From Candidatus Pacearchaeota archaeon (GTDB lineage Archaea; Nanobdellota; Nanobdellia; Pacearchaeales; GW2011-AR1), in contig JAGVWZ010000011.1 of assembly GCA_018304045.1 (NCBI GenBank), positions 1 through 53,348 on the forward strand: a DNA stretch of 53,348 nucleotides, in the 5' to 3' direction. Under the pieces are notes generated by a model. That model saw only the letters and a list, made by a program, of their open reading frames with translations, searched no databases and was not told the DNA's origin. A program made the translations under genes and the position numbers. Below are positions 8,849 through 35,239 of the stretch, piece after piece. Within the stretch, counting starts at the first letter, position 1, and every line of letters starts with the position of its first letter.

Positions 8849-8876
8849 AAAAATCTTCTGAATTCAGAAGATTTTT
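8849..8876. repeat. 28-nt perfect palindrome
   Basis: AAAAATCTTCTGAATTCAGAAGATTTTT. Confidence 0.85.
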
Positions 8877-11892: not shown

Positions 11893-12243
11893 ATGGCAAA
11901 GCAAACCAAGGACATTTCCATATCAATAACAGAGAAAGAAGGAACCTTTTCCTCAATTTTCAGTAAAATAAGGGGAGAAAATAAAAATTCAGAAATATCT
12001 ATGTTAAGGCATCTCTTAAGCAATGAAAAAGCAAGACTTTTGCACATAGCAAAAACAAAACAACCTGATTCAATCTACAAATTAGCAAAGCTTCTTGGAA
12101 GAGACTTTAAATCAGTACGCCATGACATAAGAATCTTAGAAAAATTTGGATTTATTGAGCTTATTTCTAGCCATAAAAAAAACAGAGAATTGCTAAGACC
12201 AGTGGTTGATGCAAGCAAGGTGATAATAACAATAAACCTGTAA
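11893..12243 (+). CDS. Winged-helix transcriptional regulator (HVO_A0114/ArsR-like)
   Basis: SIYKLAKLLGRDFKSVRHDIRILEKFGFIEL HTH. Confidence 0.75.
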   Translation: MAKQTKDISISITEKEGTFSSIFSKIRGENKNSEISMLRHLLSNEKARLLHIAKTKQPDSIYKLAKLLGRDFKSVRHDIRILEKFGFIELISSHKKNRELLRPVVDASKVIITINL

Positions 12244-12281
12244 AAGTTACATTTTTATATATACTTTTTCTAATATAGGTC

Positions 12282-16571: not shown

Positions 16572-16582
16572 GTTAAATATGA

Positions 16583-17089
16583 TTAAGCTATTCTTACAAG
16601 ACCATCATTAAATCCCTTTAAAATTTGAATTTCTATTCTTCCTCTTGAAGCAGGAATGCAATAAGGATTGCTGTCTTTTATTATTAAATCCAAATTCAAA
16701 TGAGTTATTCCTTTTGTTGCTATGCAGGATTTTTCTCTTGGATAAAAAAACATATTATACCTGTTATCAAAACTTTGAAGCTTCATCCCAATATCAGAAT
16801 AAGAACCTTTCATTGCTTTTGAAAAATTTGCAAAACAAACATATTTTATATTAGTTGGAAGTGCTGCCTCAAAAGGAAAACTGCTCTGTTGTTTATTGAA
16901 TGCAACAGTGATTTCATCCTGAAAATTTTTTATAAATAATCCTACCTGTGAGCAATTCTTATAGTCTAGAAATTTAGTTATTGCATAAATCGCAACAATA
17001 AGAAATATAACAATTAAAAATATTGAGAATATCATTCCAAATCCCATTCCCAAAAATCCTTCTGCCTTCTTACTCACTCTCTTTTTCAT
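16583..17089 (-). CDS. Pilin-like single-pass protein
   Basis: SKKAEGFLGMGFGMIFSIFLIVIFLIVAIYAI N-terminus; same operon. Confidence 0.65.
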   Translation of the reverse strand: MKKRVSKKAEGFLGMGFGMIFSIFLIVIFLIVAIYAITKFLDYKNCSQVGLFIKNFQDEITVAFNKQQSSFPFEAALPTNIKYVCFANFSKAMKGSYSDIGMKLQSFDNRYNMFFYPREKSCIATKGITHLNLDLIIKDSNPYCIPASRGRIEIQILKGFNDGLVRIA

Positions 17090-17380: not shown

Positions 17381-19807
17381 CTAAAAACCCAAAACTCTTT
17401 GAGTCCAACTTTCTCCATAGGTTTTTATTAAAAAGTTTCTAAAGTTCTGCATATCCTGAGCAGTTCTTATGCTATACAAAACATTATTTGGATAACTTAC
17501 ACCTGACATTGAAGGATTACTATTTAATTGAGCATATTTTTCCATAGATGTTTCAAGACTTTTTGCAAGATAGGCTTTGAATTGCTCTCCATCCTTACTA
17601 TCTAAATAACCAGGATTTCTATCCTGAAGCATCATTCCAACAAGAGCAGGTTGTAAAGACGCAGCCATTATTTGTCCAACTACATAAGATTCCAATGTTT
17701 TCCCCTCTGTTTCTAATGTATATGCAGATATATCTTCAAAAGCATGAACAGCATCCTTATTAGCATGTACTCCTAGTAAATAAGTATCATAAAATGATTT
17801 TGTTCCTCCACCGACCTGCTCAAAAGCAGTTGCTTGCCATAGGCTTTTTGATAAATATGCATAAGCCTCTGCTTTTCTAATTCCAGTATTTCTAATTGCA
17901 ACTTCCATTAAATTTCCATTATCATCAAATCCCTCTAAAAATACCCTATAGCCATCTGTTCTAGGGGAATAATCAGAATTAAATCCCCTAGCAGCGGTTC
18001 TATCATAATTAGCAAAATGAACTTCTTCATGGATTTTTGTACTGAGATCTCCACCACCACTATCTCTGCTACTTGTAAGTCTTTCAACAGAAGCAAGTAT
18101 ATCTTTATTTTTCGAAGTTACACCAGAATAATCTAATTTAACATTAGGTGTTAACTTTTTTATTTCTTCCCTTAATGTATCAGCATCAACACTAACTAAT
18201 TCCCTTTGCTTTTCAAGACTCATCAATCTTAATCTGCTCTGCTCTTCCTTTGTTAAACTATGAAAATTTGCTCTTAAGGAAGCCATATTTCCTAACTGCA
18301 TACTGACAAGTCCTTTTTCAAGTTCTTCTGCATTTCCAACACTTATACCATTTTTAGTAGTAACAACATCCCAATCATCAACTCTATTTTCAGAACTGTC
18401 TAATGTAACAACATGGATAAGAGGATTTTCATTTGAATCTGTAGAATCTTTAAATGGGCTTTCAACAAACATAGGCCCATTATATTTATCCTTGAAATTT
18501 TCTGTATAATGTAAAGCTTGTTTTCCAAAAATCATAATATATCCTCCGCCAGTAGAAGTTATTTTATAGGGAATTTTTCCATCTTCATCTATGTTTTCTA
18601 TTACTAACTTTCCACCCTCTGTTCCACCAATTTTCTGCAAAATAACAACCTTATTTCCATCAATATTAAAAAAACTATTGCCTTCTAGAAATTGAACACT
18701 AGGACTAGAACTTCCAGCAGCAGCCCCAATAATTAATTTTTTATCACCAAGTGAAAGATATGCAAAATTAGTTTTATGTTCTTCACCATCAAAAAACAAA
18801 TAATTTTTTACATCTTTGTTAGTTTTTTCACCAACTCGAAGTTTATTAATATCAAAATCACCATCAACAAAAAAAGCATCTTCTATTTCATCATAGTTCA
18901 ACTGGAATTTATTATTTCCCAATTTACTTAGTTCATATTCCCTATCATTATCCCTTATTTTTATTTTGCTCACCTCATCAGAATACACATATTCTACCCT
19001 AACATCAGCATCCTTTGAATCAGGTATTTTTACAGGTTTCTCAATTACTAATTCCTGATTATCTGGAAGTTTTATTGTCACCCTATCATCTTTAAAAGTA
19101 ACTTCAGAATTTTTTGGAGCTTTTATTTTTTTGTTGCCAAAACTATATTCAGAATCTCCTTCAACATTAAATCCTGCTTGAATAAGTTTTCCATTTTCAT
19201 CAAATTCAAATTCACCATTTCTTAAAGAATCAAATGATTTTTTATTTTCAGCATCATTTTCATTATAATAATTTAAATTTCCTTCTTTAATTGAAACACT
19301 TGTTTTTTTATTCTCAGAACCAAGTTTAGTATTGCTTTTAACTTCATAATAATTTCCATTTAAATAATAACTTCCTTGTTTTGTAGATTCAAAATATGAT
19401 TTAATAAGTTCTCCATTAGAATTAAAATAAAATCTTCCACCTGATTTTATATCTTTATAATCATAGAATTTCATTTTAACAGAATCCCTAAGAGATAATG
19501 AACCAGCTTCTTTAAATTCAATAAAAATTCCATCAGCCTGCTGTTTTATTTTAACATCCTTCATCTTGCCTATATAATTAATAGGATCTCCTTTTGCATT
19601 AACTCCTAAATATATTTGTTTTTCTTCATTTCCTATGTTTAATTCACCATTTGCATTAAAAGGCATTAAACTAGCTTTCATTATTCCTGTATTTTTATCC
19701 ATTTCATAGACATAAATACCTCCTGCAGCAAGAATTCCAACTATGCTAAAGCATAAAACAATACAAATTAAAGCAATTGTAAAAATTCTCTTTTTCTTAT
19801 TTTCCAT
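17381..19807 (-). CDS. Secreted/anchored beta-scaffold protein with C-terminal zincin-like domain (HEEVH)
   Basis: N-terminal TM; scaffold LSLGDKKLIIGAAAGSSSPSVQFLEGN shared with 23082-24830; KIHEEVHFANYD (HExxH). Confidence 0.72.
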   Translation of the reverse strand: MENKKKRIFTIALICIVLCFSIVGILAAGGIYVYEMDKNTGIMKASLMPFNANGELNIGNEEKQIYLGVNAKGDPINYIGKMKDVKIKQQADGIFIEFKEAGSLSLRDSVKMKFYDYKDIKSGGRFYFNSNGELIKSYFESTKQGSYYLNGNYYEVKSNTKLGSENKKTSVSIKEGNLNYYNENDAENKKSFDSLRNGEFEFDENGKLIQAGFNVEGDSEYSFGNKKIKAPKNSEVTFKDDRVTIKLPDNQELVIEKPVKIPDSKDADVRVEYVYSDEVSKIKIRDNDREYELSKLGNNKFQLNYDEIEDAFFVDGDFDINKLRVGEKTNKDVKNYLFFDGEEHKTNFAYLSLGDKKLIIGAAAGSSSPSVQFLEGNSFFNIDGNKVVILQKIGGTEGGKLVIENIDEDGKIPYKITSTGGGYIMIFGKQALHYTENFKDKYNGPMFVESPFKDSTDSNENPLIHVVTLDSSENRVDDWDVVTTKNGISVGNAEELEKGLVSMQLGNMASLRANFHSLTKEEQSRLRLMSLEKQRELVSVDADTLREEIKKLTPNVKLDYSGVTSKNKDILASVERLTSSRDSGGGDLSTKIHEEVHFANYDRTAARGFNSDYSPRTDGYRVFLEGFDDNGNLMEVAIRNTGIRKAEAYAYLSKSLWQATAFEQVGGGTKSFYDTYLLGVHANKDAVHAFEDISAYTLETEGKTLESYVVGQIMAASLQPALVGMMLQDRNPGYLDSKDGEQFKAYLAKSLETSMEKYAQLNSNPSMSGVSYPNNVLYSIRTAQDMQNFRNFLIKTYGESWTQRVLGF

Positions 19808-19841
19808 GGGTTAATTAGTTTTAGAATATTAATAAAGATAT

Positions 19842-20474
19842 TTATCTTCTTTTTTTCTTATTTCCACTTGTAAGATAATAGGCAATTAATGCAATTAATA
19901 TTCCCAAAAGTATTATTACCAATATTAAAGAATAATCAGAGAACTTATTGTTAACAAGAGTATTTTCTTCATAAACAATTTCATCAATAAATGTATTATT
20001 ATAAACCGAAGTATCAATATCTTCTTTTATCAAATTTAAGTTCTCATATTCTTGCTTGCTGTAAGTATTTGTAAATTCAATTAAACTATCACTTGTCAAT
20101 TCATTTCCAAGATTATCATAGAGAATTATGTCTTTGGCATAGGGAGAATAAGGAATAAATATTTCAAAATCAAAATTATTTTTTTCAATCTTTCCACCAC
20201 TAATTATTTCTCCTGTTTTATTATCAACAATATCAGAATATTGTTCTATTGGAACATTAAAATAAAATTCTTTTTCCCCAAGTTTAGCAACATAGGCTTC
20301 AGAATAATTAATAGTAGTTAAATCATAGTGAGAAAAAACAATTTCAATGTCCTTTATTGCTATGGAACTATCATTATAACTTATTTTAACATCATAATAA
20401 AATCCAGCATTTACCAATGAAATTAAAATAATAATATTCAAGCATATTAAAAAAATAATTATTTGTTTATTCAT
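19842..20474 (-). CDS. Secreted protein with signal peptide and C-terminal TM plus basic tail
   Basis: N-term IIIFLICLNIIILISLVNAGF; C-term YSLILVIILLGILIALIAYYLTSGNKKKRR. Confidence 0.65.
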   Translation of the reverse strand: MNKQIIIFLICLNIIILISLVNAGFYYDVKISYNDSSIAIKDIEIVFSHYDLTTINYSEAYVAKLGEKEFYFNVPIEQYSDIVDNKTGEIISGGKIEKNNFDFEIFIPYSPYAKDIILYDNLGNELTSDSLIEFTNTYSKQEYENLNLIKEDIDTSVYNNTFIDEIVYEENTLVNNKFSDYSLILVIILLGILIALIAYYLTSGNKKKRR

Positions 20475-22351
20475 AGAAAATCACCTCTAAAAATAATAAT
20501 CATTCCAAGAGTACCTACTGCTGCTTTTCCAGCTGCAATATATCTTTCCAATGAAGCAGAATCAGAAGGAAGTCCTGCTAAAGAAAATAGTCTTGATGCT
20601 TCTGATTGTGACATAAAACCATATTTAGTAAAAACAGCAATTCTTGCCCTGAATTTATCATGATATTTATAACCCTCGCTCAACCAATTTTTCCAAGGAT
20701 CATCTCTGTATACCATTTCTGCAAATGTAGAAGTGTCTTCTGCAGAAGTATATCCATAGTCATAGGTATGAGGTCCTGTGTTTCCCCCTATTGCCCTCCA
20801 TTCCTGATTAAACTTAGAATTATAACCAAATGTAAAATCATGTATATGTGTTAATTCATGCCTTATTATGCTTGGTCTAAATCCTCCATTTCCAACATTT
20901 ATATAAAATACACCATCACTATCTGCAAGTCCAGACCAGCCAGTCCATCCATCCATTATTATAAATTGATTTAACCCCCATTTTTTAAAATTATTTGTAG
21001 GAATACCTGCAAAAATATCCATTAACATTTGGATATTTTTAAGGTCTTTTGTAACACCTGTTTTATCTACAATAGAAACTCCTGTGAATTTATTTAAACC
21101 AGCAAGAGTTTGATCATAATTATAGACAAGGCTATTTGAAAATCCAGAGAATAATCCCGGAGCTTTTTTTTGTTTATAATAATCTGGAACATGGGTTTTT
21201 ATAAATTTAGGATCAGGCCCATATCCAAAATTATTCTGATTTCCAATACCCAACACATTCTTGTATTTTGAAATATCAAATTTTTGTCCATTAATTGTCT
21301 TATAGGGATGAACTTCTAATGGAGTTGAAAAACTATTTGCAGGAGATTTGCCAAATTCTTCTATAAGTCCGCCATTTGTGTTAAGATGAAGTTTGCCATC
21401 ATCTGTATTAAAATAAACACTCTTTCCATCTTCATCCATTACAAATTGATTCAATGTTTCAACATTAGGAACTTTTCCTTCTTTTTCCCTGTTTTGTATT
21501 GAAATATAACTTCCTTCTGAATTTCCAAGAGGTCTCATTGTAAAATAATCAGATTTTTCAATCTTGACTCCAAAAGCATTATTTTCATCAAGTTTTACAG
21601 AAGGACCCCTGACATCAATATTACATCCAACTGTTAATTTACCCTTTTCCTTATTAATAGAAATATATCCTGCTTTTAAATCAGGTTTTATTTCACCATC
21701 ATAAAAAATATAAGTTGGAACTTTTTCAGGATTTTTTACATTAATACTTCCAATTTTAGCATCAGAATCAAAGAAAAATCCTTCTTTGTATTTAAGAGTA
21801 CCTGTAAATTTATCTCCATTTTCAAGAGTAAAACCTTTATCAGATTCATAGCTGAGGGTTATATCTTCGCTTGCATCAGTAACACTTTCTATTTTTAAAG
21901 GTTTTTCAAGCTTCATTTCTCCAACAGGTTTTATAGTAGCAACACCATCTTTGTAAATAACATCTGCTCCAGCAGGAACAAAAAATTCCTGATTTCCAAG
22001 CCTGTATTTCCCATTTTGAGATGGAGTAAAATAAGCTTCTTTCATATTTCCAGATTTATCAAAAATAAATTCATTTTTCTTAGTTCCATCAAGACTTCCA
22101 TAGGTTCTAGAATCTCCCTTATAACTCACAGATAAAGTTCCACCACTTTTTACTTTAAAACTATTTAAATCACTGATTGTAGCAGGAGGTTCAACATTAG
22201 TTCCCCATGTAACAAGAACCTTGTCACTAAATTTAATCTGAGTACCTTCAATTAAAGGATCACTGATACTTGCTTCTGCAACAACAAAACTAATACCAAT
22301 TATTATCAAAAAAGCAAAAAATAAACAATCAATTTTTTTCATTTTAATCAT
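20471..22351 (-). CDS. Secreted beta-scaffold protein with C-terminal zincin-like metallopeptidase domain (HELTH)
   Basis: Signal peptide; SIIRHELTHIHDF and downstream SAEDTSTFAEMVY; start shifted inward from 22387. Confidence 0.72.
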   Translation of the reverse strand: MIKMKKIDCLFFAFLIIIGISFVVAEASISDPLIEGTQIKFSDKVLVTWGTNVEPPATISDLNSFKVKSGGTLSVSYKGDSRTYGSLDGTKKNEFIFDKSGNMKEAYFTPSQNGKYRLGNQEFFVPAGADVIYKDGVATIKPVGEMKLEKPLKIESVTDASEDITLSYESDKGFTLENGDKFTGTLKYKEGFFFDSDAKIGSINVKNPEKVPTYIFYDGEIKPDLKAGYISINKEKGKLTVGCNIDVRGPSVKLDENNAFGVKIEKSDYFTMRPLGNSEGSYISIQNREKEGKVPNVETLNQFVMDEDGKSVYFNTDDGKLHLNTNGGLIEEFGKSPANSFSTPLEVHPYKTINGQKFDISKYKNVLGIGNQNNFGYGPDPKFIKTHVPDYYKQKKAPGLFSGFSNSLVYNYDQTLAGLNKFTGVSIVDKTGVTKDLKNIQMLMDIFAGIPTNNFKKWGLNQFIIMDGWTGWSGLADSDGVFYINVGNGGFRPSIIRHELTHIHDFTFGYNSKFNQEWRAIGGNTGPHTYDYGYTSAEDTSTFAEMVYRDDPWKNWLSEGYKYHDKFRARIAVFTKYGFMSQSEASRLFSLAGLPSDSASLERYIAAGKAAVGTLGMIIIFRGDFL

Positions 22352-23078
22352 ATTGATTTGCAAAATAAAATACATATTCCTCCCCATTTAAATCATTTTC
22401 AAGGTCATAAACTCCAAATATAACATCTCCATGATAATCCATCATATTAATATAGAGATTGTTTTCAATTGCAGTATCTGCTATGCAATCAAGACAAACA
22501 TCACTGCTCTTCATCTGCATATCCATTATTTTTTTAATAGAATCATAGATTATTCCAAGCCTTATTTTAACACTAGTTTCAAAATCTTTAATTACATAGG
22601 TTTTATCTGCCTTTTTTATGCTCAAAGGATATTTTATTTTAAAATAAACACTATCATTCATAAATTCAACACTGGTATTCACTTCAGAACTTTTTACTTC
22701 ATAATCAGGAAAATCTACAAAATTTTTTGTGCAAAGAAAAATAGCATCATTCATAAATTCACTTAATTCATTTTTAACTATTTCTTTTGAAGGCATATAA
22801 TTTTGTTTATTGTAAAAATAATATGCTACTTTATTTTCAGTTGCAAGTTTAGGAACAATATAATATCCTCCAGAATCTCCGATGTAATAAACAGCATCAT
22901 CTGCACTTTTTTTAATGCAATTTTCAACAAAATCATTAATAGGTTTTACTTCAGGAGGAACTGTATTTCCAATATCTAAAACATTTATTTTAAATAAAAG
23001 AAATATAAAAATAAATGCAATTATTGTTATTCCAATTATTACAAATATGCTTATCTGTCCTCTATTTAATTTAATCAT
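22344..23078 (-). CDS. QITxF-type pilin-like single-pass protein (paralog P4)
   Basis: LNRGQISIFVIIGITIIAFIFIFLLF; paralogous to 24837, 29439 and 34267. Confidence 0.7.
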   Translation of the reverse strand: MIKLNRGQISIFVIIGITIIAFIFIFLLFKINVLDIGNTVPPEVKPINDFVENCIKKSADDAVYYIGDSGGYYIVPKLATENKVAYYFYNKQNYMPSKEIVKNELSEFMNDAIFLCTKNFVDFPDYEVKSSEVNTSVEFMNDSVYFKIKYPLSIKKADKTYVIKDFETSVKIRLGIIYDSIKKIMDMQMKSSDVCLDCIADTAIENNLYINMMDYHGDVIFGVYDLENDLNGEEYVFYFANQYD

Positions 23079-23081
23079 GAT

Positions 23082-24830
23082 TTATTTAATGCTCTTATAT
23101 TTTTCCCAAGCATAATTACATTTAGAAGGAGAAGTACAATCAGTTTTTCTATTAATGTAAATATCATTATTAACAACAGCTATTTGTTCAACTTTGATAT
23201 TTCCCCACGAGTTTGTGTTTACCTGGAATTGGCCATTGAAAACATATCCTTTTACTTTTTCTCCATTTGGAAGAGTTAATTCACCATAAACTCCATTAAA
23301 ACTCTGTTGAGTTGGATATTTGATTCCTGATTTTGTTACAGCATCCTTATATGTTTTCTTTTCACTATCTTTTAATTTATCTCCTTTTGTAGGTTGATTG
23401 CTATTATTTGTAGTTTTATTAAATGGAATAACAGTACCATTTCCAAGTTTTGTATCTGGCTTAACAGGTTCAACCTTGACTTCAGCAGGTATTTTTTTTA
23501 TTTCTTCTCTTAATTTATTAACATCAGAACCAACTAATTCTCTTTGTTTTTCAGGAGTTAAACTTTTTAATTTTTCCTGTTCTTCTTTTGTTAAACTATG
23601 GAAACTAGTTTTTATTGAAGTAACAACACCTTGTTTTGAAGTTGCCAATTGGTTTTCTAATTCTTTTGCATTTCCAGCTTTTATTCCATTATAAGAATCA
23701 AAAACAGCATCCCATTCACCAACCCTATTTCCAGTTTTATCTGTGGTAATAATCTGCATAGGAATACTTTCTTTTACTTTTGCATAATCAGCAAGAGGAT
23801 TTTTAGTCAATAACATCGGCCCCTTATACTTGTCTTTAAGTTCTTCATTATATCTTATTGCCTTTTCTCCGAAAAACATATTATAACCTCCGCCCTTAGA
23901 AGTTACCTTAGGAATATTTCCAGTAGCTCCTTGTTCAATTGTCAAATATCCACCATCTTTTCCACCAATCTTCTGCATCATAACTAAATTTTTATCAGTA
24001 ACTTTTAGAAATTCATTTCCAGGAAGGAATTGAACACTAGGACTATAATCTCCTTTTGCAGCTCCAATAATTAATTTTTTATCACCAAGTGAAAGATAGG
24101 TAGAATCAATTTCATGTTCTTTTCCATCAAAAAACAAATAAGTTTTTTCATCATTCTGGCTTTTTTCACCAACCCTAAGCCCCTTCATTTCAAACTTTCC
24201 ATTAACATAAAAAGCATCTGCTTTTCCATCATAGTTCAACTGGAATTTTTCATTTCCTAATTTACTTATTTCATATTCTTTTCCATTATCCTTTATTTTT
24301 ATTTTGTTTACATCATCTGCATATCTATACTCAACATTTACATCAGGATCTTTTGAATCAGGTATTTTTACAGGTTTTTCAACAGCAGAACTATAATCCT
24401 TTGGAAGTTGTATTGAAACCTTATTATCCTTAAAAATAACCTGTGAATCCTTTGGGATTTTTACCTTCTTATTTCCAAATATGTATTCAGAATCTTTTGA
24501 AACATTAAATTTAGCACTCACTAGTTTCTTATCTTTAAAACTAAAACTGTTCACCCCATTTAGATTTTTAAATTCTTGATTATTAAATTTTATAGAGCTA
24601 GCACCTCCTCCAAATGAGACTGTTTTTACATCTAAACTCTGATCTATAAAAGACATGACTACATTTTCCAGTACCACCTCATTATCATTAGTAAATCCTA
24701 ATTTTGTTCCAATAGCTCCAGATATAAACGACTGTTCTTCAACAGCAAGAATCTGAACTAGAAATGCAAATAAAAATATATTGAAAAATAGTAGCAAAAT
24801 AATTTGTTTAGTATTAAAATCATTTTTCAT
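23082..24830 (-). CDS. Secreted beta-scaffold protein (paralog of 17381-19807 without HExxH)
   Basis: LSLGDKKLIIGAAKGDYSPSVQFLPGNEF; HSLTKEEQEKLKSLTPEKQRELV block; different C-terminus. Confidence 0.7.
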   Translation of the reverse strand: MKNDFNTKQIILLLFFNIFLFAFLVQILAVEEQSFISGAIGTKLGFTNDNEVVLENVVMSFIDQSLDVKTVSFGGGASSIKFNNQEFKNLNGVNSFSFKDKKLVSAKFNVSKDSEYIFGNKKVKIPKDSQVIFKDNKVSIQLPKDYSSAVEKPVKIPDSKDPDVNVEYRYADDVNKIKIKDNGKEYEISKLGNEKFQLNYDGKADAFYVNGKFEMKGLRVGEKSQNDEKTYLFFDGKEHEIDSTYLSLGDKKLIIGAAKGDYSPSVQFLPGNEFLKVTDKNLVMMQKIGGKDGGYLTIEQGATGNIPKVTSKGGGYNMFFGEKAIRYNEELKDKYKGPMLLTKNPLADYAKVKESIPMQIITTDKTGNRVGEWDAVFDSYNGIKAGNAKELENQLATSKQGVVTSIKTSFHSLTKEEQEKLKSLTPEKQRELVGSDVNKLREEIKKIPAEVKVEPVKPDTKLGNGTVIPFNKTTNNSNQPTKGDKLKDSEKKTYKDAVTKSGIKYPTQQSFNGVYGELTLPNGEKVKGYVFNGQFQVNTNSWGNIKVEQIAVVNNDIYINRKTDCTSPSKCNYAWEKYKSIK

Positions 24831-24836
24831 TTTTAA

Positions 24837-25628
24837 TTAATTATATTTATTTACAAAATTAAATACAAATGCACTGTTATTAATTTTTGAATTTTCATCA
24901 GTGATTGTATAAATCATATCATCCTCATAATCAAGTGTTTTAATATAAACATCATTTTTTTTGCTAAGGTCATATAAACAACCAATGCAAATGCTTTCCC
25001 TGTCAATTTTTTGTTCATCTATTATTTGCTTAGCAATATCATAGACAAGACCTAATCTAACCTTGAATTCACTTTCAAAATTTTCAAGTTTGTAAACTTT
25101 TTCATTTTTTGTTATAGAAAGAGGATAAGTTACCTTAACACTAACTCTATCATTTTCTATTGTAACTCTTGAAGAAACTTCTCCTTCTTCTACTGAAAAT
25201 TCAGGAAGTTGTGAAAATTCATTAACACAGAAACTAAGGTCATTATTAATATACTTGGATATTTCTTCTGCAACTTTTTCTTTTGAAGGCATATAATCTT
25301 CATTTTTGTAAATATAATATGCAATTTCCATTTCAATTGATTTTTCAGGAGTATCATAATATCCTCCTTTTTTACTCACATAATCAACAGCTCTGCTCAA
25401 TGTGTCTCTAAGGCAAGTATCAACAGCAGAATAAACAGGATTAATATCCACAGGAACATTTTGTTTTATATTCAAAGGAGAAGTATCTTTAAAAACAAAA
25501 TATAATCCTATGCTTCCTAGAAGCACTAACCCAATTATAATAAATGGCGTAATTTGCGAGCGTTTTGAATCAGGGAAAATTAAATTAGGTAACTGATTCG
25601 AAACGCGAGTTGAGAGTTTATTTATCAT
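24837..25628 (-). CDS. QITxF-type pilin-like single-pass protein (paralog P3)
   Basis: DSKRSQITPFIIIGLVLLGSIGLYFVF; AYYIYKNEDYMPSKEKVAEEISKYI. Confidence 0.7.
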   Translation of the reverse strand: MINKLSTRVSNQLPNLIFPDSKRSQITPFIIIGLVLLGSIGLYFVFKDTSPLNIKQNVPVDINPVYSAVDTCLRDTLSRAVDYVSKKGGYYDTPEKSIEMEIAYYIYKNEDYMPSKEKVAEEISKYINNDLSFCVNEFSQLPEFSVEEGEVSSRVTIENDRVSVKVTYPLSITKNEKVYKLENFESEFKVRLGLVYDIAKQIIDEQKIDRESICIGCLYDLSKKNDVYIKTLDYEDDMIYTITDENSKINNSAFVFNFVNKYN

Positions 25629-27745
25629 AGTTCAATTGCTTGCATTATTGGTTCGATTTTTGAAGGTCTTGCTATTATTGAACAAGTATTTGGATTTGGT
25701 TGATTATTATAATTATCCATGCATCTTATATAATAGTTTTGGTTGAATTTCCATTCAGTTGTATGTATTTTTCCATTAAAACTAGTCATTTTTATTCCAG
25801 ATTCTATTTCAAAATTACAATTCTTTAGAGAATAACTACATTCAGCATTCTCATCAGTTATTATTTTTAATTCTCCAATATCCCTATAAACTCTTACAAC
25901 AACAGGTTCTCTTTTATCAGTATCAACTTTGAAATTAGTGGAATTATAAGCACTATTTCCCCCTAAATCAACACACTTGAAGTAATAACTATAATTTCCA
26001 GAAATAAGATCCTGTCTTTGATTATGATGACTTGAACTTGTATTGGCAAATAAGATATAATCTTCCTCTTTAGCAGGATTACCTTTTGAATAATAACATA
26101 AAGCTTCTCCGTCTTTATATCCATTATCTGTTTCAATTGTTAAGAATACTGGAATTGTATCTGTTGAACCAGATATTGTACTTCCTCTTTCAGGAGTTAT
26201 ACTCATTATATTCAATGGCTGAGTTCCAATTACAACATAATGATAGCTTTGTTGATTCACATTCCTGTCACCTTCACTTGCAAAAGGCTGGTCTTTGCAT
26301 CTGAAATAATAATCATTTTCTTTTCTGTCTTGTATTCCTGTTAAAACAGTTCTGCAAGTATAAACTAAATTATTATTCATTTCCCAAACATTTGTATCAC
26401 AAGTCATATTATTCTCCATATAATCATATCTTATGTCTGTTCTGCTCCATCTGCACTCACTAGGTTCATTAACATAGACTTCTAAATTAAGTTTTGTTTG
26501 ATTGAACAATATTGGTTTATTACTTTCTATATTTGTTCCAACTATTGCAGGAGCAGTTGTATCAGGTCCTTTTTGAACACAAAAATTAACTGAAAATGCA
26601 TCCACATTAAAATTTCCATTTGCATCCCTGCATCTTATATAAAGAGTATATTCTCCATTATTTTTTAAAACAGGTGCAACAGCATTTATTGCATCAGGAC
26701 CTGGAAGAGCTAATTTTTCAGTGTGATTATATGCATATAAATCATCACCTCCAACATAATAAGTCATGTCATCATATAAAGACTTAGAATTATTTGTTGC
26801 AGTTGTTGTTGTTAAAACATAATCAATCTTGCATTGTGAAGGTTCTCCAACACCAGTGCCAGTATCCAATGTCGTGAATGTGAATTCTAAAGGAGTATAA
26901 GCTTTTAAGCAACCATCACTAGATAATTGATTTTTTATAATAACTCCTGTAGCAGGAGGTCTTACAGCATTGTTAGGAACCCAGGTATGGTTTTTGCTAA
27001 CTTTTGTCATTTTTATTATTGGTGAATTAACATCATTTGGATTTTTCCAAATGCATTTTTGTTGAGGAGTTCCAGCATTTATAATATCACAAGCCTGTCC
27101 AAGGCTCTTGCAAGTATATTCAGAACATTCTTTATAATTATTACACATTTGGCAATAATCTCCTCCAACAGGAGCTTGCCAAGGAAGACAACCAAACTCC
27201 ACAACCTGAGTTGATTTCTTGTAATATGTTAATATAAAAATTATTGTAGCAACAGAAAGTCCAATTATGCTTGACCAAACAGGTCCTATGCCAAATCCTT
27301 CTGCTAATCCTGCAACAACACCTCCAATTGCTCCTGCAACACTTCCCCAAAGAGCTCCATTTTCTCCACCTGCTAAACTTCCTATTGTGCTAAAAATTCC
27401 AACACCAATTCCAGCTTTCATAATTATTGATTGAAAATTAATATTTCCAGTTCCCCATCCACCATTTATAGGATCACCAGTACCAGTACCAGTTCCCCCT
27501 GTTCCATCACCAGTATTTGTATTATCCGTGCCAACACCAGTTGAGTCTCCATTAGGATTATCATTGATAACAGTTCCACCTGGAATATTTGTATTTGTAC
27601 CACTTCCAGGAATAGTTGTTCCTTCATTATTTCCCATGTCAGTTCCAGTTGGAGCACTTATAATATAGCTAAATGCAATAATTCCTAAAATAACATTTAC
27701 AATCATAAAATATACCTTCAAGTTTTTTATCATATTTTTTTTCAT
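25625..27745 (-). CDS. Large surface protein: Gly/Thr-rich linker, glycine-zipper TM region, Cys cluster, Ig-like repeats
   Basis: AGIGVGIFSTIGSLAGGENGALWGSVAGAIGGVVAG; CQMCNNYKECSEYTCKSLGQAC; APAIVGTNIESNKPILFNQTKLNLEVYVNEPSECRWS. Confidence 0.72.
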   Translation of the reverse strand: MKKNMIKNLKVYFMIVNVILGIIAFSYIISAPTGTDMGNNEGTTIPGSGTNTNIPGGTVINDNPNGDSTGVGTDNTNTGDGTGGTGTGTGDPINGGWGTGNINFQSIIMKAGIGVGIFSTIGSLAGGENGALWGSVAGAIGGVVAGLAEGFGIGPVWSSIIGLSVATIIFILTYYKKSTQVVEFGCLPWQAPVGGDYCQMCNNYKECSEYTCKSLGQACDIINAGTPQQKCIWKNPNDVNSPIIKMTKVSKNHTWVPNNAVRPPATGVIIKNQLSSDGCLKAYTPLEFTFTTLDTGTGVGEPSQCKIDYVLTTTTATNNSKSLYDDMTYYVGGDDLYAYNHTEKLALPGPDAINAVAPVLKNNGEYTLYIRCRDANGNFNVDAFSVNFCVQKGPDTTAPAIVGTNIESNKPILFNQTKLNLEVYVNEPSECRWSRTDIRYDYMENNMTCDTNVWEMNNNLVYTCRTVLTGIQDRKENDYYFRCKDQPFASEGDRNVNQQSYHYVVIGTQPLNIMSITPERGSTISGSTDTIPVFLTIETDNGYKDGEALCYYSKGNPAKEEDYILFANTSSSHHNQRQDLISGNYSYYFKCVDLGGNSAYNSTNFKVDTDKREPVVVRVYRDIGELKIITDENAECSYSLKNCNFEIESGIKMTSFNGKIHTTEWKFNQNYYIRCMDNYNNQPNPNTCSIIARPSKIEPIMQAIEL

Positions 27746-29436
27746 TATGAATATTCCTCCAAACCATTTACAAATCCTTGTGTAATAGATTGTTTTTTAC
27801 CATTTACTTTCCAAACATAACCATCATCAGTATATACTCCTGCAATATTTGAATATGCCCCGCAATCTCCAAGACTAACACAGATTTGATTCAAATCCAT
27901 TACCCAACTAGGATTTAATGGTTCACAATTACTTTCACATGTTTTCTCTCCAAAAAAATCTTCTGTAAATTGAACAATTTGTTTTGAATTTCCAAGACTG
28001 CAAACAGCTTTTGCATCTCCACTACTCCAAAACTTTAATCCAGGAGGATAATATGGAAGACAGATTCCAGTTCCATTAGAGCCATTAGCTGTTTTCATTA
28101 TTCCAGTTCCTATGCTTTCATTTACACCTTCAGCTTTTTCAACACTTGCATTTGAATTCTGACTTTTGCTTCCATCATAGAAATAATTAGGATTCCAGAA
28201 ACAATCTCTCTTATCAAAATTTTCACAATCTTCCTGAGTGAATTGGTCTATGCAATCATTCCATCTATTGATTCTGCATCCAGCTTCTTGAAAGTTTCCA
28301 TAGGCAGAACTCATTTTTTCTTCTTTGCAAACTTCATTTCTAAAATCTGCGCAAGGTTCTATTGTCTCTTCTCCTTGAACACAAACATGCCTGAAATGTC
28401 TGCTTCCAACTAAATCTCTTCCATTTCCAACTTCTCCTTGATAAACACACCAAGATTCCCCATTTCTATAACTATTTCCATTTTCAGTATTATAGCAATT
28501 CAAATCTTTACATATATAATCTCCATAGGTTGCTTTCCCTTTTCCACAAATGCTTCCAGTTATATAATTGCAATTTCCACATGTTGCAGAATTTTTATTT
28601 GCAGTGCTTGATTTATATCCACAAGATGCAGATTTTGGAACTATTTTTTTCCAATATGAAGAGTCTTTTGCATAGACTTTATTTGCATCATAAATATTTG
28701 CAGGATTTCCACAAGTATCTTTAAAATAAACTTCATCTCTTCCACTTAAACACATTGTTTCAGTAGTTGGGCCGCAATTAGCAGCTAATTCATCAGCAGT
28801 GCATAAATAATCTTTAAAAAATTCTGTTTTTGACATATTGCTGCTAGCTGTCCTATTTGTATCCAAACATTCTTGTCTAGTTATAAATCTGCAGGTTTTC
28901 TGTCCATCAGATTCATAAACACAAGCTCCTTTATCCTGGGAATATGCAGTCATGATACAATCAGCTTCATTTTTAATATCTTTTTTAAAATTAGTATTTA
29001 ATCCATATAATGCAGAAATTTTTTTGCATCTTGTTAAAGTAGAAAAACTAGCCTGGTCACCTATAAGACAGCATCCAAGTGTACATTGAGGAACATTACA
29101 CTTTGCATCTTCAACCCAAGTTCCTTCTGAAATCTGGCAGACTCTCTGAGGAGAATTTTCCATGCATAATCCTTCATCAGAGTCTATACAACATCCTAGT
29201 TTACAATAACTTGTAGAATCACAACTTGTAGGTGTTGCCCTATAAGATGATTGAGTCAGTTCATCAATAGAAGTATCGCAATTTGATTCAAGGGAATTTT
29301 GACACCATGCATCATTTTTTGTTTTTTCACAGCAAAAATTATAAGAAGGCCATTCTACTGTTTCACTTAGAATCATTGCAATAGAATAACTAATAAGTAA
29401 GCTAGCAAAAATTATTAATATTATTTTATTTTTCAT
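27745..29436 (-). CDS. Large secreted Cys-rich protein
   Basis: Signal peptide; repeated CC motifs (CKLGCCIDSDEGLC, CTLGCCLIGD); VGSRHFRHVCVQGEETIEPCADFRNEVC. Confidence 0.72.
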   Translation of the reverse strand: MKNKIILIIFASLLISYSIAMILSETVEWPSYNFCCEKTKNDAWCQNSLESNCDTSIDELTQSSYRATPTSCDSTSYCKLGCCIDSDEGLCMENSPQRVCQISEGTWVEDAKCNVPQCTLGCCLIGDQASFSTLTRCKKISALYGLNTNFKKDIKNEADCIMTAYSQDKGACVYESDGQKTCRFITRQECLDTNRTASSNMSKTEFFKDYLCTADELAANCGPTTETMCLSGRDEVYFKDTCGNPANIYDANKVYAKDSSYWKKIVPKSASCGYKSSTANKNSATCGNCNYITGSICGKGKATYGDYICKDLNCYNTENGNSYRNGESWCVYQGEVGNGRDLVGSRHFRHVCVQGEETIEPCADFRNEVCKEEKMSSAYGNFQEAGCRINRWNDCIDQFTQEDCENFDKRDCFWNPNYFYDGSKSQNSNASVEKAEGVNESIGTGIMKTANGSNGTGICLPYYPPGLKFWSSGDAKAVCSLGNSKQIVQFTEDFFGEKTCESNCEPLNPSWVMDLNQICVSLGDCGAYSNIAGVYTDDGYVWKVNGKKQSITQGFVNGLEEYS

Positions 29437-29438
29437 AA

Positions 29439-30248
29439 TTAATTTCCAGTTATTCCCGGAGGCCTTACAAGACTCCTTGTTGCAAACATGAATTTATCTT
29501 GACTATTTCTGTTTGTAAGTATGTATATTTTTGTTCCTTCACTTCTCATTTTCTTTTCAACTTTTAAATCAGGATGAGAATACATGTAATTCATTGTTTC
29601 ACTATCACCATATCTTGCTTCCCAATTTGCAATAGAACTTCCTATTATAATAAAATCATATAAATTTGAAGCAACATCAATCTTAACTTGTTTATACAAT
29701 TGTGTATTTTCTTTTGTAAGTTCAAGATTTATATTTCCAGTAATCTTTACATTATAAGGTATTAATTCTACTTTAATATTTGGTTTATCCATATAAGCAG
29801 TATATCCTTTTTGTTCATAACTCTGTCTTACTTCTTCCATGCAATCTAGAGCAGTGCTTTCAATAAAGATTTTTAATTCATTTTCTATTTCAGATTTAAG
29901 CATAGGTTTCTGCATGACACAGGGAGAATAATACTGATTAATATAACACATATAAGCTACCTTGCTTCCATTATACATATAGAAATTTTTAGGATCCATT
30001 TCTCCACCTTGCATGCTTATAATATCAATACCCTCTTTTGCAGTACTGCTCAAACATTTTTCCATTGCCAAGGAAGGAGATTCTTTTGCAAATATAGCAA
30101 CAATATCTGATTTTTCTGTGAACAATAAAAATAACACAATTACAATGCAGAGTGCTAAAATAATAAATATAGTAATCTGACCTCGTTTAGATTCCGATTT
30201 CTTATTTAGAATTAAGCTGAATTCAAGTCTCTTTTTTTTATTATCCAT
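29439..30248 (-). CDS. QITxF-type pilin-like single-pass protein (paralog P2)
   Basis: SKRGQITIFIILALCIVIVLFLLF; AYMCYINQYYSPCVMQKPML. Confidence 0.7.
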   Translation of the reverse strand: MDNKKKRLEFSLILNKKSESKRGQITIFIILALCIVIVLFLLFTEKSDIVAIFAKESPSLAMEKCLSSTAKEGIDIISMQGGEMDPKNFYMYNGSKVAYMCYINQYYSPCVMQKPMLKSEIENELKIFIESTALDCMEEVRQSYEQKGYTAYMDKPNIKVELIPYNVKITGNINLELTKENTQLYKQVKIDVASNLYDFIIIGSSIANWEARYGDSETMNYMYSHPDLKVEKKMRSEGTKIYILTNRNSQDKFMFATRSLVRPPGITGN

Positions 30249-30285
30249 GTTTTTTTATAATGATAAGTTTATTTATAAATTTATT

Positions 30286-33200
30286 CTAATATTGGTAAGT
30301 TTCAAAAGGACTTGCCATTATCCTAGGTCCAGGATTTCCAAATTCATCCCTGCACTCAATATAATATACAACTCCAAATGTCCATGGAGCAAAATGTTCT
30401 ATTTTATCACTGGTTGTCATTTCAGTTCCATTACTAAAAACAAAATTCTTTTTTGTGCTATATCTGCATTGTGCAGGCTCATCAGTTGTTATTCTTAATC
30501 CACCATCATTGAAAACTCTTATTATAACAGGCCCCATACTATCAATTATTAATTTGAATAAAGTACTATTCTGTGCTTCATTTCCAGCAACATCCCAACA
30601 ATCAAAAGTTATATTATAGTTTCCTCTTGGAGCACTAGTCCAATTATAATCATGTTTATTAGTATAATCCCCTGTAAAAAAATCCCTGTTATAATCAACT
30701 CGATTATCATACCATTGACATTTTGAATCTCCATTTTCAGCTCCACCCTTTGTTTCAACTTTTAATACAACAGAAGCAGGATCTTGTCCAGATATTATTT
30801 CTTGGCCATTAACAGGCCTGAAGTCAATTATAGTTAAAGGACTTTGGCTATGTTGAATTTCATATATATAACTTTGAGTCATATTGTTTCTTTCTTCAGA
30901 AAGATCTTGGCATCTTATGTAGAATTTTGTTGAATTAGTTACATTAAGGTTTGCAAAACAAGGCAATCCATATTCAACTCGTATTTCACTGGCATTAACA
31001 CCAGGAATCATTAAACTTTCATAATCTGTTATAACATTTATACTGCAATTCATTTCATCATCCATATCATCAAAAGAAACATCTTCTATAGACCATCTGC
31101 ATTGAGAAGGTTCATCAACATATGTGATTATAGTCATATTAGTGACATTATATTTTACATAACTTCCTGTATTAGGAGTAACTGTTCTGATAACAGGAGG
31201 TGTTAAATCAGGTCCTGGATTTACGCAACTTCTAATATGATATGGATTTGGATTTTGCCTTCCACTTGCAGTCTTGCATTTTACAAATATTTCTGTTTTT
31301 GTTAATTCTTCTATTTCAGCTTCTGTTAAATTACAAGGTTGACAAACCATTGTTTTTTTACCATCAACATATTGTTCTTTACAAGGGTTTTGAGTAGTAT
31401 TGCATAATGTCTGTCCTGCAAAAGAATTTCTAACAGATTCTGGGCTTGGATACATTAAATCTAATTGATGGGCAGGTAGTATTTGTGCTCCTTTTAATCC
31501 AAATTCATAGAACATTTCTTCCCATTTTTTTGTAGGATCAGTATCAAATCTGCATTTTGCAAAAGGATCAACAGTTATTCCCATGTGTATCATTTTAAAT
31601 GGATCAACACATTTTCCATCAAGAGTTCTTATTTCAAAACCATCTTGACTTATTTCAGTGTATTTATATCCCTGAGTTATAACACTATAAAATGGTTGTA
31701 TCACTGGAAGAGATTCATTTTCTTCCAATGCTAAACATAATTCATCACTAGTCCCTTCATTTATAAATTTGCACAATTCACCTAAACTTTGACATCTGTA
31801 TTTTGTGCAAGGAACATCTATTACATTGCATTTATTACAATCTGCATTTCCAGAAGGCCTTTCCCACATTCCACAATGGAAATCAATATACACAAACATT
31901 ATCCACATTAATGCAAATAAATATGCAAGTAATGCTGCTAAAAATGCCATCATTATGCTTTGAGTTATAATATAGGCAATTAATCCAGCAAGCAATGCAG
32001 CAATCATTTCAAATCCTCCTGCTTTAATATCTTTTTGCACTATCTGCGCACTAATCGCAGCCCTAACACTTGAAAATGCATTAAAATAACTTCCAGCAGT
32101 AGTTGGATTTGATTGAACTTGGTTAAGTGAAGCTGGATCAAGAGAAGCATTGTCTTGGGAAATCATATACAAAAGTAAAGGAGATCCCATAGACCCTGCC
32201 ACTTGATTAAGTTCAGCTTGAAATGCATAAGGATCAATTGTTGATTCTGCAACTTCTAATTGACTAAGAATATCCAAATATTCTGCTTCCAATGCCATGT
32301 ATTCTGCAGAATATTGCTCTATACCTGCCTGATCTCCAGAATCTAATGCAGTTTGAAGATTTGCTTTTGCAATATTCATCTCTTTTTGAGTTTTTGCTAA
32401 TTCTTCATTAAGTTGAGTTATATTTGTAGAACTATTCATGCTTAATTCATAGGTTTCTAAATTTGTTAAATTTTCATCATTTATTGAATTAAAAAATTCA
32501 AAAGTTCCAGGATCAGCAGGTTTTGTACCTGCTCTTGCTTTATAAAATCCAATATATCCAGGACCTAATGTATTAGGCGGCGCTTCTTCTTCTCCTGTTG
32601 ATTTTGTTCCAATACCTCCCCCTGTCCATACATCAATATAATTTATCCAAGCTCCACAATCTCCAAGGCTTATGCAGAATTCATTCATTTCTTCTGTAAA
32701 ATAATCAGTATGGCATTTACAATTATCCACACACCAGCATCCAAATATTCCGCATATCCATGTTTCAGTGCATCTTTGAGTAGCAATGCTGCATAAAGAA
32801 TCTCCTGTAACAGTTACAGATTCTGATGTTTCATCATATAAATCAAATCCAGGAGGATATTCAGGAAGGCAAACATCAAATTTAAAACTTCCATCCATAT
32901 CAATATGTTTTACCCAGCAATCTGGATTTTTAGGGCACTTCTCCAGCATTTCAGATGTACTTTTTTTAGCATTTAATTCCAAACATTTTCCCCAATTATT
33001 AAATCTGCATGCAGCCTGTGAAAATTCAGTTCCATCATTTGCTGTTGCAGTGCTTGCAACACAAATATTATTTCTATAATCTACACATGGTTCAGTTCTT
33101 TCTGTTCCAAAATAACAAACATGTCTTACATGCCTGCTTCCAGCAGGATCTTTTCCTCTTCCAATAACATTATCATATTCACACCAAGATTCTCCATTTT

Positions 33201-34242
33201 TTCTTTCAACTCCATCAATAACACAATCAATATCTTTGCAAATATATTTTTTAGAATCATCCTTACCACAATAAGTTCCAGAAAATAAATCACAATCCTG
33301 GGCAACCCCTTCATGATTATTACAAGAATCAAACCAATAAACATCATCTTTGCCTTCAATACATCCTTTATGGTCTTTTGCTTTGCATGTTGTATTCAAA
33401 GAAGGGTCTGAACAATATTTTCCACTCACATCAAAATTAGTAGCATTTCCAGTTCTAACAATGCAATCATCAAGTGTTGTATAGACACATGTTTTATTTT
33501 TTCCAGAATAAAATACACAAGCACCTTCCTTGCTTCCCTGAACAGAATATTTACACTGAACTTCATTTGTTAATTCAGGTTTCCATTCTTTTGGAATAGT
33601 TGGATTTTGAGAATTCGCTAAAAAATCACATTGAGCCTGAGTTGTCAATTGCGCATCACCACTTCCTAATTGACAACAGCCTAATCTGCAATTAGGGCCT
33701 GCACATTTTTTATCATTTCCATCAAAAGTTCCATTAAGATCAATGCATGTCCCTTTTGAAGAAACAGGATTACATATTCCATCCTTATTGCTTTGACAGC
33801 ATCCTTTTTCACACCATCCAGCATCTACTTCAGAGCAATTTGACAAATATGTAACATAACTTGGATCAGATTTATCACAATTTATAGGTAAATCCATTTC
33901 ACACCATTTTCCAGATTTTGTTTTAGAACAGCATATTAACTGAGTTTCTGCAGCAGAAATTTCTGTAGATTTATAGATTAAATATGAAAAAGCAAGTAAT
34001 CCGATCATCAATGCAATTATTTGAAAACAACCAAGAGCAGCTGTTTTATAAATTTGAGAAGCAGTTTCAGTTGAATCTGTCTTTTTTTCTTCAGCTATAA
34101 TTTCTTTATTATTAGAAGGATTAGTATAAGAATATATTAAATAGGAAAAAGCAAATAATCCTATTATTAATATAATTATCTCAAAATAACTTATGCACGC
34201 TTTATTCAACATTTGTTTTTCCTCTTTTGTTATATCTCTCAT
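30286..34242 (-). CDS. Giant (1318 aa) Cys-rich/Ig-like surface protein, fusion of 563-aa-like and 706-aa-like modules
   Basis: N-half CEKGCCQSNKDGIC, AGSRHVRHVCYFGTERTEPCVDYRNNIC; C-half CNKCNVIDVPCTKYRCQSLGELC, TPPVIRTVTPNTGSYVKYNVTNMTIITYVDEPSQCRWS. Confidence 0.75.
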   Translation of the reverse strand: MRDITKEEKQMLNKACISYFEIIILIIGLFAFSYLIYSYTNPSNNKEIIAEEKKTDSTETASQIYKTAALGCFQIIALMIGLLAFSYLIYKSTEISAAETQLICCSKTKSGKWCEMDLPINCDKSDPSYVTYLSNCSEVDAGWCEKGCCQSNKDGICNPVSSKGTCIDLNGTFDGNDKKCAGPNCRLGCCQLGSGDAQLTTQAQCDFLANSQNPTIPKEWKPELTNEVQCKYSVQGSKEGACVFYSGKNKTCVYTTLDDCIVRTGNATNFDVSGKYCSDPSLNTTCKAKDHKGCIEGKDDVYWFDSCNNHEGVAQDCDLFSGTYCGKDDSKKYICKDIDCVIDGVERKNGESWCEYDNVIGRGKDPAGSRHVRHVCYFGTERTEPCVDYRNNICVASTATANDGTEFSQAACRFNNWGKCLELNAKKSTSEMLEKCPKNPDCWVKHIDMDGSFKFDVCLPEYPPGFDLYDETSESVTVTGDSLCSIATQRCTETWICGIFGCWCVDNCKCHTDYFTEEMNEFCISLGDCGAWINYIDVWTGGGIGTKSTGEEEAPPNTLGPGYIGFYKARAGTKPADPGTFEFFNSINDENLTNLETYELSMNSSTNITQLNEELAKTQKEMNIAKANLQTALDSGDQAGIEQYSAEYMALEAEYLDILSQLEVAESTIDPYAFQAELNQVAGSMGSPLLLYMISQDNASLDPASLNQVQSNPTTAGSYFNAFSSVRAAISAQIVQKDIKAGGFEMIAALLAGLIAYIITQSIMMAFLAALLAYLFALMWIMFVYIDFHCGMWERPSGNADCNKCNVIDVPCTKYRCQSLGELCKFINEGTSDELCLALEENESLPVIQPFYSVITQGYKYTEISQDGFEIRTLDGKCVDPFKMIHMGITVDPFAKCRFDTDPTKKWEEMFYEFGLKGAQILPAHQLDLMYPSPESVRNSFAGQTLCNTTQNPCKEQYVDGKKTMVCQPCNLTEAEIEELTKTEIFVKCKTASGRQNPNPYHIRSCVNPGPDLTPPVIRTVTPNTGSYVKYNVTNMTIITYVDEPSQCRWSIEDVSFDDMDDEMNCSINVITDYESLMIPGVNASEIRVEYGLPCFANLNVTNSTKFYIRCQDLSEERNNMTQSYIYEIQHSQSPLTIIDFRPVNGQEIISGQDPASVVLKVETKGGAENGDSKCQWYDNRVDYNRDFFTGDYTNKHDYNWTSAPRGNYNITFDCWDVAGNEAQNSTLFKLIIDSMGPVIIRVFNDGGLRITTDEPAQCRYSTKKNFVFSNGTEMTTSDKIEHFAPWTFGVVYYIECRDEFGNPGPRIMASPFETYQY

Positions 34243-34266
34243 TTTTTCTATTTATACTTTTGGTTT

Positions 34267-35031
34267 TTAATATCCAGGTGGAAGTGGACAACTTCTTAAT
34301 GCAAATTGATATCTATGTTCAGTTGCTCTTTCAGTTAAAACATAAATCCTATCAGATCTTCCAGTTATAGTTTCATTTATATCAAAACTAGGATTTATTA
34401 TCATATAACCCAAGGAATCAAAATAACAATATTTTGCTTGTTGATTTGCAGCTTCCATGGCAATATCTGCAAAATCATATATAGGATGTAGCATATTTAT
34501 TTTAAAATTATTAAAGTTTATTGTCCGGTCTTCACGAATTATTTGAAAATCTTTTTGTATTCTTATTTCAACATGTTTAGGATAAATATTTGTTGTTACC
34601 TTAATTCCAGGGGTATCAATAACATCTGTTGAGCTTTCTTTTAATTTAAATCTAAGTTTTTCAAAACAATCAGCTATCTTAGGAGTTATATACTCTGTTA
34701 TTTCTCTTTGGATATGTTCAACTAATAATGGTCTTTGATAAGCACAAGGTTTGTAATTCTCTCCACTATAACAAATATAAACTATTTCATCATTCATAAA
34801 TTGTACAGAATATCCAGGAGAAATATCTGCACCACTATTGCTTATTCTAGCAATAGCATCTTCAACAGCCATTCTAGTGCATGTTTCAATTGATCCTTGC
34901 GGATTTCTTTCATCAAAGATTTGAACAATTGGATTATCTTGGAATCTCCAAAATATAAAAATCAAAATTAAAACAACAATTATCAAAGCAAATATTATAA
35001 ATATTGTTATTTGACTTTTTTTATTTTTCAT
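34267..35031 (-). CDS. QITxF-type pilin-like single-pass protein (paralog P1)
   Basis: Start reassigned to MKNKKSQITIFIIFALIIVVLILIFIFW; VYICYSGENYKPCAYQRPLL. Confidence 0.7.
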   Translation of the reverse strand: MKNKKSQITIFIIFALIIVVLILIFIFWRFQDNPIVQIFDERNPQGSIETCTRMAVEDAIARISNSGADISPGYSVQFMNDEIVYICYSGENYKPCAYQRPLLVEHIQREITEYITPKIADCFEKLRFKLKESSTDVIDTPGIKVTTNIYPKHVEIRIQKDFQIIREDRTINFNNFKINMLHPIYDFADIAMEAANQQAKYCYFDSLGYMIINPSFDINETITGRSDRIYVLTERATEHRYQFALRSCPLPPGY

Positions 35032-35239
35032 TTTTCCACCATATCCAGGTTCCTTTTCCAGAACCCACTTGTTTACCTTTAATAGAATTTTCAGCCCTGA
35101 GATTAACAAGTCTGTAAAATATTTTTGTTCTTGTTACATTGGTTATAATTTTTTCTATTTCTCTTGTTTCAAGAGGCTCATAAGACTCTTTAATCAATTT
35201 AAGAATTCTATCACTCTCTTTGTCTTTTCCAATCCTCAT
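35021..35239 (-). CDS. Small winged-helix DNA-binding protein, first gene of the surface operon
   Basis: ILKLIKESYEPLETREIEKIITNVTRTKIFYRLVNLRAENSI; overlaps the start of the next gene. Confidence 0.65.
   Translation of the reverse strand: MRIGKDKESDRILKLIKESYEPLETREIEKIITNVTRTKIFYRLVNLRAENSIKGKQVGSGKGTWIWWKNEK

Follow-up and report, generated by a model that had tools for sequence, protein, structure and literature searches.

The window analysed here, a stretch of 53,348 nucleotides, is contig 12 of the genome of a Candidatus Pacearchaeota archaeon (GenBank GCA_018304045.1, JAGVWZ010000011.1; phylum Nanobdellota), which comprises 1.16 Mb on 55 contigs and is an estimated 86% complete. On its minus strand, at 14448-35239, lies a run of 16 genes that we treat as one unit (Table 1). 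Four of them, denoted P1 to P4, encode paralogues with a prepilin-type signal, each standing before a gene for a much larger exported protein; the last four (the quartet) encode proteins that we call minor-pilin-like from their signal only. An earlier note on this DNA had described twelve consecutive minus-strand open reading frames (ORFs) at 17381-35239, arranged as repeating units of a pilin-like protein and a giant. All twelve were recovered exactly there, with the overlaps it had listed; the end that it set at 17381 had to be moved, since the four syntenic class-III-signal ORFs at 14448-17089 belong to the run too.

The run and its duplicated module

The ORF preceding P1 gave no match in a Pfam scan; at one related locus (L047) a small ORF likewise lies between PCNA and P. 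Its overlap with P1 holds when P1 starts at ATG 35031, a better choice than the disfavoured TTG 35109. L706 and P3 overlap by 4 bp at 25625-25628. Signal sequences, Cys-rich and immunoglobulin-like (Ig-like) domains among the products support the cell-surface role that the note had proposed.

Reciprocal BLASTP revealed that the N-terminal half of L1318 is homologous to L563 (E 8e-56; residues 74-554 alignable) and its C-terminal half to L706 (E 2e-53; residues 747-1312). P1+1318 and P2+563+706 are therefore two copies of one module, with the giant split in the second. Their P proteins match at 31% (5e-43); for P3 and P4 the values are 37% and 1e-53. An alignment of the N-half family contains 27 invariant columns, mostly Cys, and the AlphaFold model of L563 was poor (predicted local distance difference test, pLDDT, 60.8) and unusable. 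A second domain type, denoted M-type, is common to M582, M638 and M808; neither M638 nor M808 gave a Pfam peptidase match despite their HExxH motifs.

Table 1. Genes of the run in transcription order; an arrow marks the predicted cleavage site in the signal
Gene	Position	Strand	Features
wHTH ORF, 72 amino acids (aa)	35021..35239	-	first ORF of the run; 11-bp overlap with P1; "winged-helix" is the earlier note's label
P1, 254 aa	34267..35031	-	class-III-type signal KKS↓QITIF; transmembrane helix; head of no known fold
L1318	30286..34242	-	giant rich in Cys (70); pair of internal hydrophobic segments around residues 741-784; candidate tip protein
P2, 269 aa	29439..30248	-	KRG↓QITIF; clusters in the tree with P genes preceding N-half partners
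L563	27745..29436	-	43 Cys; homologue of the L1318 N-half
L706	25625..27745	-	homologue of the L1318 C-half; sub-threshold Ig-like (Big_13) match
P3, 263 aa	24837..25628	-	KRS↓QITPF; palindromic repeat of about 64 bp in the leader
M582	23082..24830	-	domain shared with M808 (355 aa at 56%); HExxH motif absent
P4, 244 aa	22344..23078	-	NRG↓QISIF
M638	20471..22387	-	M-type domain and HELTH (zinc-protease motif, by eye)
S210	19842..20474	-	signal sequence; C-terminal transmembrane segment
M808	17381..19807	-	M-type domain and HEEVH (zinc-protease motif, by eye)
p168	16583..17089	-	minor-pilin-like; quartet member 1
p337	15558..16514	-	minor-pilin-like; quartet member 2; 318 aa aligned, beginning at residue 20 of the longest frame (15558-16571)
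p198	15020..15616	-	minor-pilin-like; quartet member 3
p190	14448..15020	-	minor-pilin-like; KKA↓QHEMVG; quartet member 4

P proteins and their apparently cognate partners

A profile built from ten P proteins of this genome yielded 13 matches in the genome itself and, across the phylum, detected P in 132 of the 148 genomes sampled, with 1-14 copies each; the 16 P-negative genomes may carry a P too diverged for the profile, and the sampled genomes are partly incomplete and their gene calls mechanical. The class III signal of the prepilin-peptidase type is present in P (109 proteins; cleavage-site motif K-[RK]-[GSA]↓Q-[IV]-T-[IV]-F-[IV]-I) and, judged by eye, in the quartet. An AlphaFold2 model of P1 from 28 alignment rows reached a pLDDT of 90.4 and a predicted template-modelling score of 0.80. 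In this one model of one protein, a transmembrane helix (residues 5-31) is followed by a low-confidence gap (about 32-43) and a mixed alpha/beta head. Foldseek comparison of the model with viral models gave no match at E<=0.001, Pfam and NCBIfam scans of P and the core partners gave nothing above cut-off, and a PDB sequence search with the P and L563 profiles returned nothing meaningful.

P genes are followed by large exported proteins far beyond this run. In a sample of loci with 112 P ORFs, we counted as partner a next gene close by, of at least 350 aa and N-terminally hydrophobic, and compared 106 P genes with 476 other same-strand gene pairs of the same loci. Such a gene followed 86 of the 106 P genes and was found in 46 of the 476 background pairs (Fisher p ~7e-49, a descriptive value because the genes are not independent); P and the next gene most often overlap by 4 bp. 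The survey of gene neighbourhoods suggested by the earlier note thus found the adjacency that it had read from the run, four of four there, conserved across the phylum.

The partners are diverse. Elsewhere in the same genome, P precedes proteins of 899, 812, 750 (Trypsin_2, 9e-10), 613 (CAP, 1e-8) and about 2050 aa; in relatives, partners include SLT (sub-threshold), PG_binding_1 (1e-10), LysM and HExxH proteins. The M-type domain, considered as the possible common part of a polymorphic effector or toxin system, occurs with HExxH, with trypsin or with neither, and most other partners have no detectable mutual relation. For 58 of 81 complete partners an N-terminal hydrophobic segment is the sole hydrophobic anchor. 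P+partner cassettes also stand alone at several places of the genome, away from machine genes.

In a tree of 98 P domains, 64 of them labelled with a partner family, nine changes of partner family sufficed, against at least 33 in shuffles and a minimum of six for seven labels. Similarly, at multi-cassette loci (L067, L091, L092) P sorts with partner type, not with genome. P and partner therefore diversified together, and by sequence the pairs look cognate, in agreement with what the note had supposed.

Several further observations concern P leaders and cassettes. A DNA repeat of about 64 bp is present in three copies in the genome (window 25548-25635, minus strand; contig 6, 9489-9553; contig 40, 12218-12281) that are 88-92% identical, the window copy having 14-nt inverted arms. 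Each copy lies within the leader sequence of a gene with a pilin signal, upstream of the predicted cleavage site, and locus L045 carries a 63-nt in-frame tandem at the same leader position (7883-8008). The palindromic element looks to be tolerated there because the leader is cut off. One partner (L102:4482-7979) has a C-terminal Hint-like domain (2e-4, below cut-off) and is perhaps self-processing. At L046, L048 and L075, small gene pairs that by eye resemble nucleotidyltransferase (MNT)/HEPN toxin-antitoxin pairs lie between the second P gene of the core locus and its N-half partner. A long form of P (about 620-780 aa) followed by giants of about 1000-2650 aa recurs across the phylum (L012:3273-11316, L064, L066, L077 and others) and is also found on a contig labelled Aenigmarchaeum (L074); it is possibly the ancestral module.

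The quartet and a candidate motor

In Pacearchaeota the core locus recurs in the order primase, PCNA, a first P with a giant of about 1250 aa and a second P with an N-half protein, often with a C-half protein next. Where the contig is long enough (L054, L090, L114), small class-III-signal genes homologous to those at window 14448-17089 lie behind it. All 12 regions sampled around p337 matches, from genomes of many families, show the order giant, p168, p337, p198, p190. The giants in these regions measure 929-2700 aa; one is joined to p168 via an N gap, and at L159 a small ORF separates giant and p168. Frames that seem to fuse the giant with p168 (L158) or p337 (G134) would have argued directly for a joint function, but both cross N gaps and the fusions were rejected. 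P stands before the giant in four of the 12 regions (L155, L156, L157, L159). Relatives have the quartet immediately behind the giant; in the window, inserted M-type cassettes separate it from the C-half. With genomes that do not appear in the printed match table taken as negative, p337 is present in 117 of the 148 genomes, namely in 117 of the 132 P-positive and none of the 16 P-negative ones (Fisher p 3e-13, descriptive because the genomes are related).

Beyond the quartet, a protein of about 780 aa resembling S-layer proteins is encoded in several genomes (window 7511-11462, minus strand; L156, L157, L159), followed in the window, L156 and L157 by two small membrane proteins; the quartet locus seems to be linked to this gene. 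Between the two, on the opposite strand (window 11893-14315, plus), a small ORF resembling a regulator accompanies the gene of a 677-aa alpha/beta-hydrolase (DUF915/lipase-like) that is hydrophobic near its N-terminus. Further on, at 6717-7298 (plus), there is a pacearchaeosortase match (NCBIfam NF033505, 4.8e-48); together with the nearest named relatives of the locus, which are Candidatus Pacearchaeota, it places the organism among these DPANN archaea.

The window contains neither a secretion ATPase nor a platform protein, as the earlier note had remarked; such proteins are encoded at two other places of the genome. One, on contig 6, is a classic operon of an ATPase, two TadC halves and pilins. 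At the other, a 767-aa protein matches T2SSE (1e-11), and a 739-aa TadC-like protein is encoded 1.5 kb further on. The 767-aa type of ATPase is present in 147 and the 739-aa protein in 146 of the 148 genomes, often as neighbours, and a prepilin peptidase (PF01478), here on contig 48, in 144. TadC (PF00482) scored above cut-off in 112 genomes and gave no match in 29, nine of which were inferred from absence in the printed table. P is present in 28 of these 29 TadC-negative genomes, 27 of which also carry p337, and TadC in 15 of the 16 P-negative genomes. P and the quartet thus show no fixed association with the classic pilus. The best PF00437 match of TadC-negative genomes is nearly always of the 767-aa type (that of G030 differs, and G011 and G102 are exceptions), and we infer that the 767-aa/739-aa pair is the natural candidate motor for P and the quartet. 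A link drawn from the coincidence of missing P and a diverged platform was dropped because phylogenetic distance explains that pattern equally well.

In five genomes (G024, G048, G059, G076, G144) the ATPase of the 767-aa type lies in open frames of about 1275-1420 aa whose match is interrupted near residue 500, the pattern that an intein would give. At L119:94-4567, a prepilin peptidase gene lies behind five further small pilin-signal ORFs, a set distinct from the window quartet. Near the 767-aa-type ATPase of two TadC-negative genomes, three similar-looking small polytopic membrane proteins are encoded (L132:9778-11618, L133:8683-10396), which are possible extra parts of the machine.

A proposed filament tip and its alternatives

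The layout of the run recalls FimU-PilV-PilW-PilX-PilY1 operons, in which four small class-III-signal proteins accompany one very large non-pilin exported protein and a genome can hold duplicate clusters; Myxococcus xanthus has three clusters, each of four minor pilins and PilY1 (PMC7541494). Here, in contrast, no PilY1 domain was found, an extra P precedes the giants, the giant comes before the quartet and the modules are Cys-rich. For minor subunits that lack Glu5, such as GspK, the tip has been argued to be the only possible place (PMC5207764). Like GspK-type pseudopilins, P is bigger than the other minor subunits and has a hydrophobic residue in place of Glu5 (PMC5207764). Non-pilin effectors located at the tip have been described, and in TcpB/CofB with TcpF/CofJ a secreted protein depends on a tip subunit, a pairing that the one proposed for P and its partner would resemble (PMC10191384). 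TcpB has Glu5, unlike P; and unlike both GspK and TcpB, P has a head with no match to pilin or GspK-like folds and occurs in multiple copies, each with its own partner. From the priming-complex-like layout and the tip-only fit of minor subunits lacking Glu5, we therefore propose P as a tip-level adaptor of its own giant.

On the reading to which we give an even chance, the locus at 14448-35239 encodes tip and cargo of a type-IV-filament-like machine that belongs to this DPANN phylum. In such a machine, prepilin peptidase would trim P and the quartet members, which the phylum-wide pair of 767-aa ATPase and divergent TadC-like protein would lift out of the membrane, and the quartet would prime a short filament. 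P would sit at the very tip, as is assumed for GspK-type subunits, or beside it, carrying its cognate large partner. The cell would in this way display or deliver against another cell the adhesin-like, Cys-rich giant of the core or else proteases and other enzymes as exchangeable cargo, with additional P cassettes supplying alternative cargo. The module is duplicated in this genome, as P1+1318 and P2+563+706, with protease-like M-type cassettes as insertions ahead of the quartet. In favour of this reading are the conserved order of giant and quartet, the co-occurrence of p337 with P, the adjacency of P and partner and the agreement of the P tree with partner family, the signal motif with Phe5 in place of Glu5, the near-universal prepilin peptidase, ATPase and TadC-like protein, the scarcity of further anchors in the partners, and the bacterial precedents above.

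Mature position 5 of P is Phe in 102 of 109 proteins and Glu in none; P lacks the Glu5 of pilins, as GspK-type tip subunits also do. Several results weigh against this reading. The P1 model contains no continuous pilin helix, and Foldseek found no match to it in the PDB at E<=0.001. P carries a prepilin signal without, on present evidence, a prepilin fold, and its identity as a pilin, like the earlier note's proposal that it anchors, assembles or exports its partner, is only putative. Pfam scans of the partners detected no PilY1-type domain. Giant and quartet occur without an adjacent P in several genomes, chiefly of the TadC-negative family f13. The T2SSF match (PF00482) of the 739-aa platform candidate is weak (22.4 bits against a cut-off of 25.2; hhalign probability 32%, E 5e-4), no gene linkage connects P with the 767-aa ATPase, the classic TadC system is also present in most P-positive genomes, and the filament itself is predicted from genes alone.

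Some of the same observations would suit a membrane-tethered receptor, in which the transmembrane helix holds P, the linker frees the head and the head keeps the adjacent exported protein on the surface, with no filament and with a peptidase that may merely trim P. The flexible linker and non-pilin head predicted for P1, the scarcity of C-terminal anchors among the partners, the isolated cassettes distant from machine genes and the retention of P in the 28 TadC-negative genomes all fit it. What makes it unlikely in our view, though well worth considering, is that nearly all P proteins retain the G/S/A↓Q cleavage motif, that the quartet shares the locus in a layout like a filament priming set, and that almost all of these genomes also have the ATPase and the TadC-like protein. 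Another possibility is a secretion piston: P and the quartet would form a short filament like that of type II secretion systems, expelling the partner into the medium or a touching cell, and P would be the substrate specificity factor. Exported enzymes among the partners (trypsin, CAP, SLT-like, peptidoglycan-binding, HExxH), mostly without other anchors, and the GspK-like absence of Glu5 speak for it. To our knowledge, no outer membrane or secretin is to be expected in these cells, and a piston therefore seems unnecessary after Sec export; with the internal hydrophobic segments of the core giant L1318 also counting against it, we consider it distinctly improbable. That P, quartet and giants are ordinary minor pilins and adhesins of a classic archaeal type IV pilus is suggested by the contig-6 operon with its several pilins and by TadC in most P-positive genomes. 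The 28 P genomes (27 with p337) without a PF00482 match and the 15 of 16 P-negative genomes with TadC indicate that the two do not track each other, which leaves this idea very little probability.

Among the closest known systems are the archaeal type IV pili of the 2016 census by Makarova and colleagues, which share with the proposed machine an ATPase, a TadC-like protein, prepilin peptidase, class-III-signal proteins and large adhesin-like proteins near minor pilins; the platform candidate here is very divergent. A term search of the census text found no description of the P family, the P+giant cassette or the quartet of this phylum, and no paper describing the system was found in the open-access literature, consistent with the note's view of it as undescribed. 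The SPEARE proteins of Nanohaloarchaeota, known from a DPANN ectosymbiont, are likewise giants of the cell surface and carry domains for proteolysis and adhesion (PMC6642349). Compared by description, they differ from P partners in having their own transmembrane anchor and an intracellular restriction-enzyme domain, with no P-like gene mentioned (PMC6642349). More tentatively, the system may be a phylum-wide, undescribed grappling or attack machine, in which P, with a new fold, would load exchangeable giants (adhesins, proteases, wall-active enzymes) onto a quartet-primed tip, driven by the near-universal ATPase and platform previously without a known substrate.

How DPANN archaea attach to other cells and exploit them has long been asked, candidate molecules are few, and the group of this tiny archaeon is mostly host-dependent. 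The module defined here by conserved order, motif, co-inherited quartet and candidate motor is widespread and multi-copy in one DPANN phylum, and its arrangement, kept across that phylum, suggests a widespread, undescribed means of holding or attacking other cells. Its products are also candidate substrates of the nanoarchaeal secretion ATPases for which the 2016 census could identify no pilins (PMC4858521). Through the pairing rule of a P with its own large partner, candidate host-interaction proteins of uncultured cells may be found from sequence alone.

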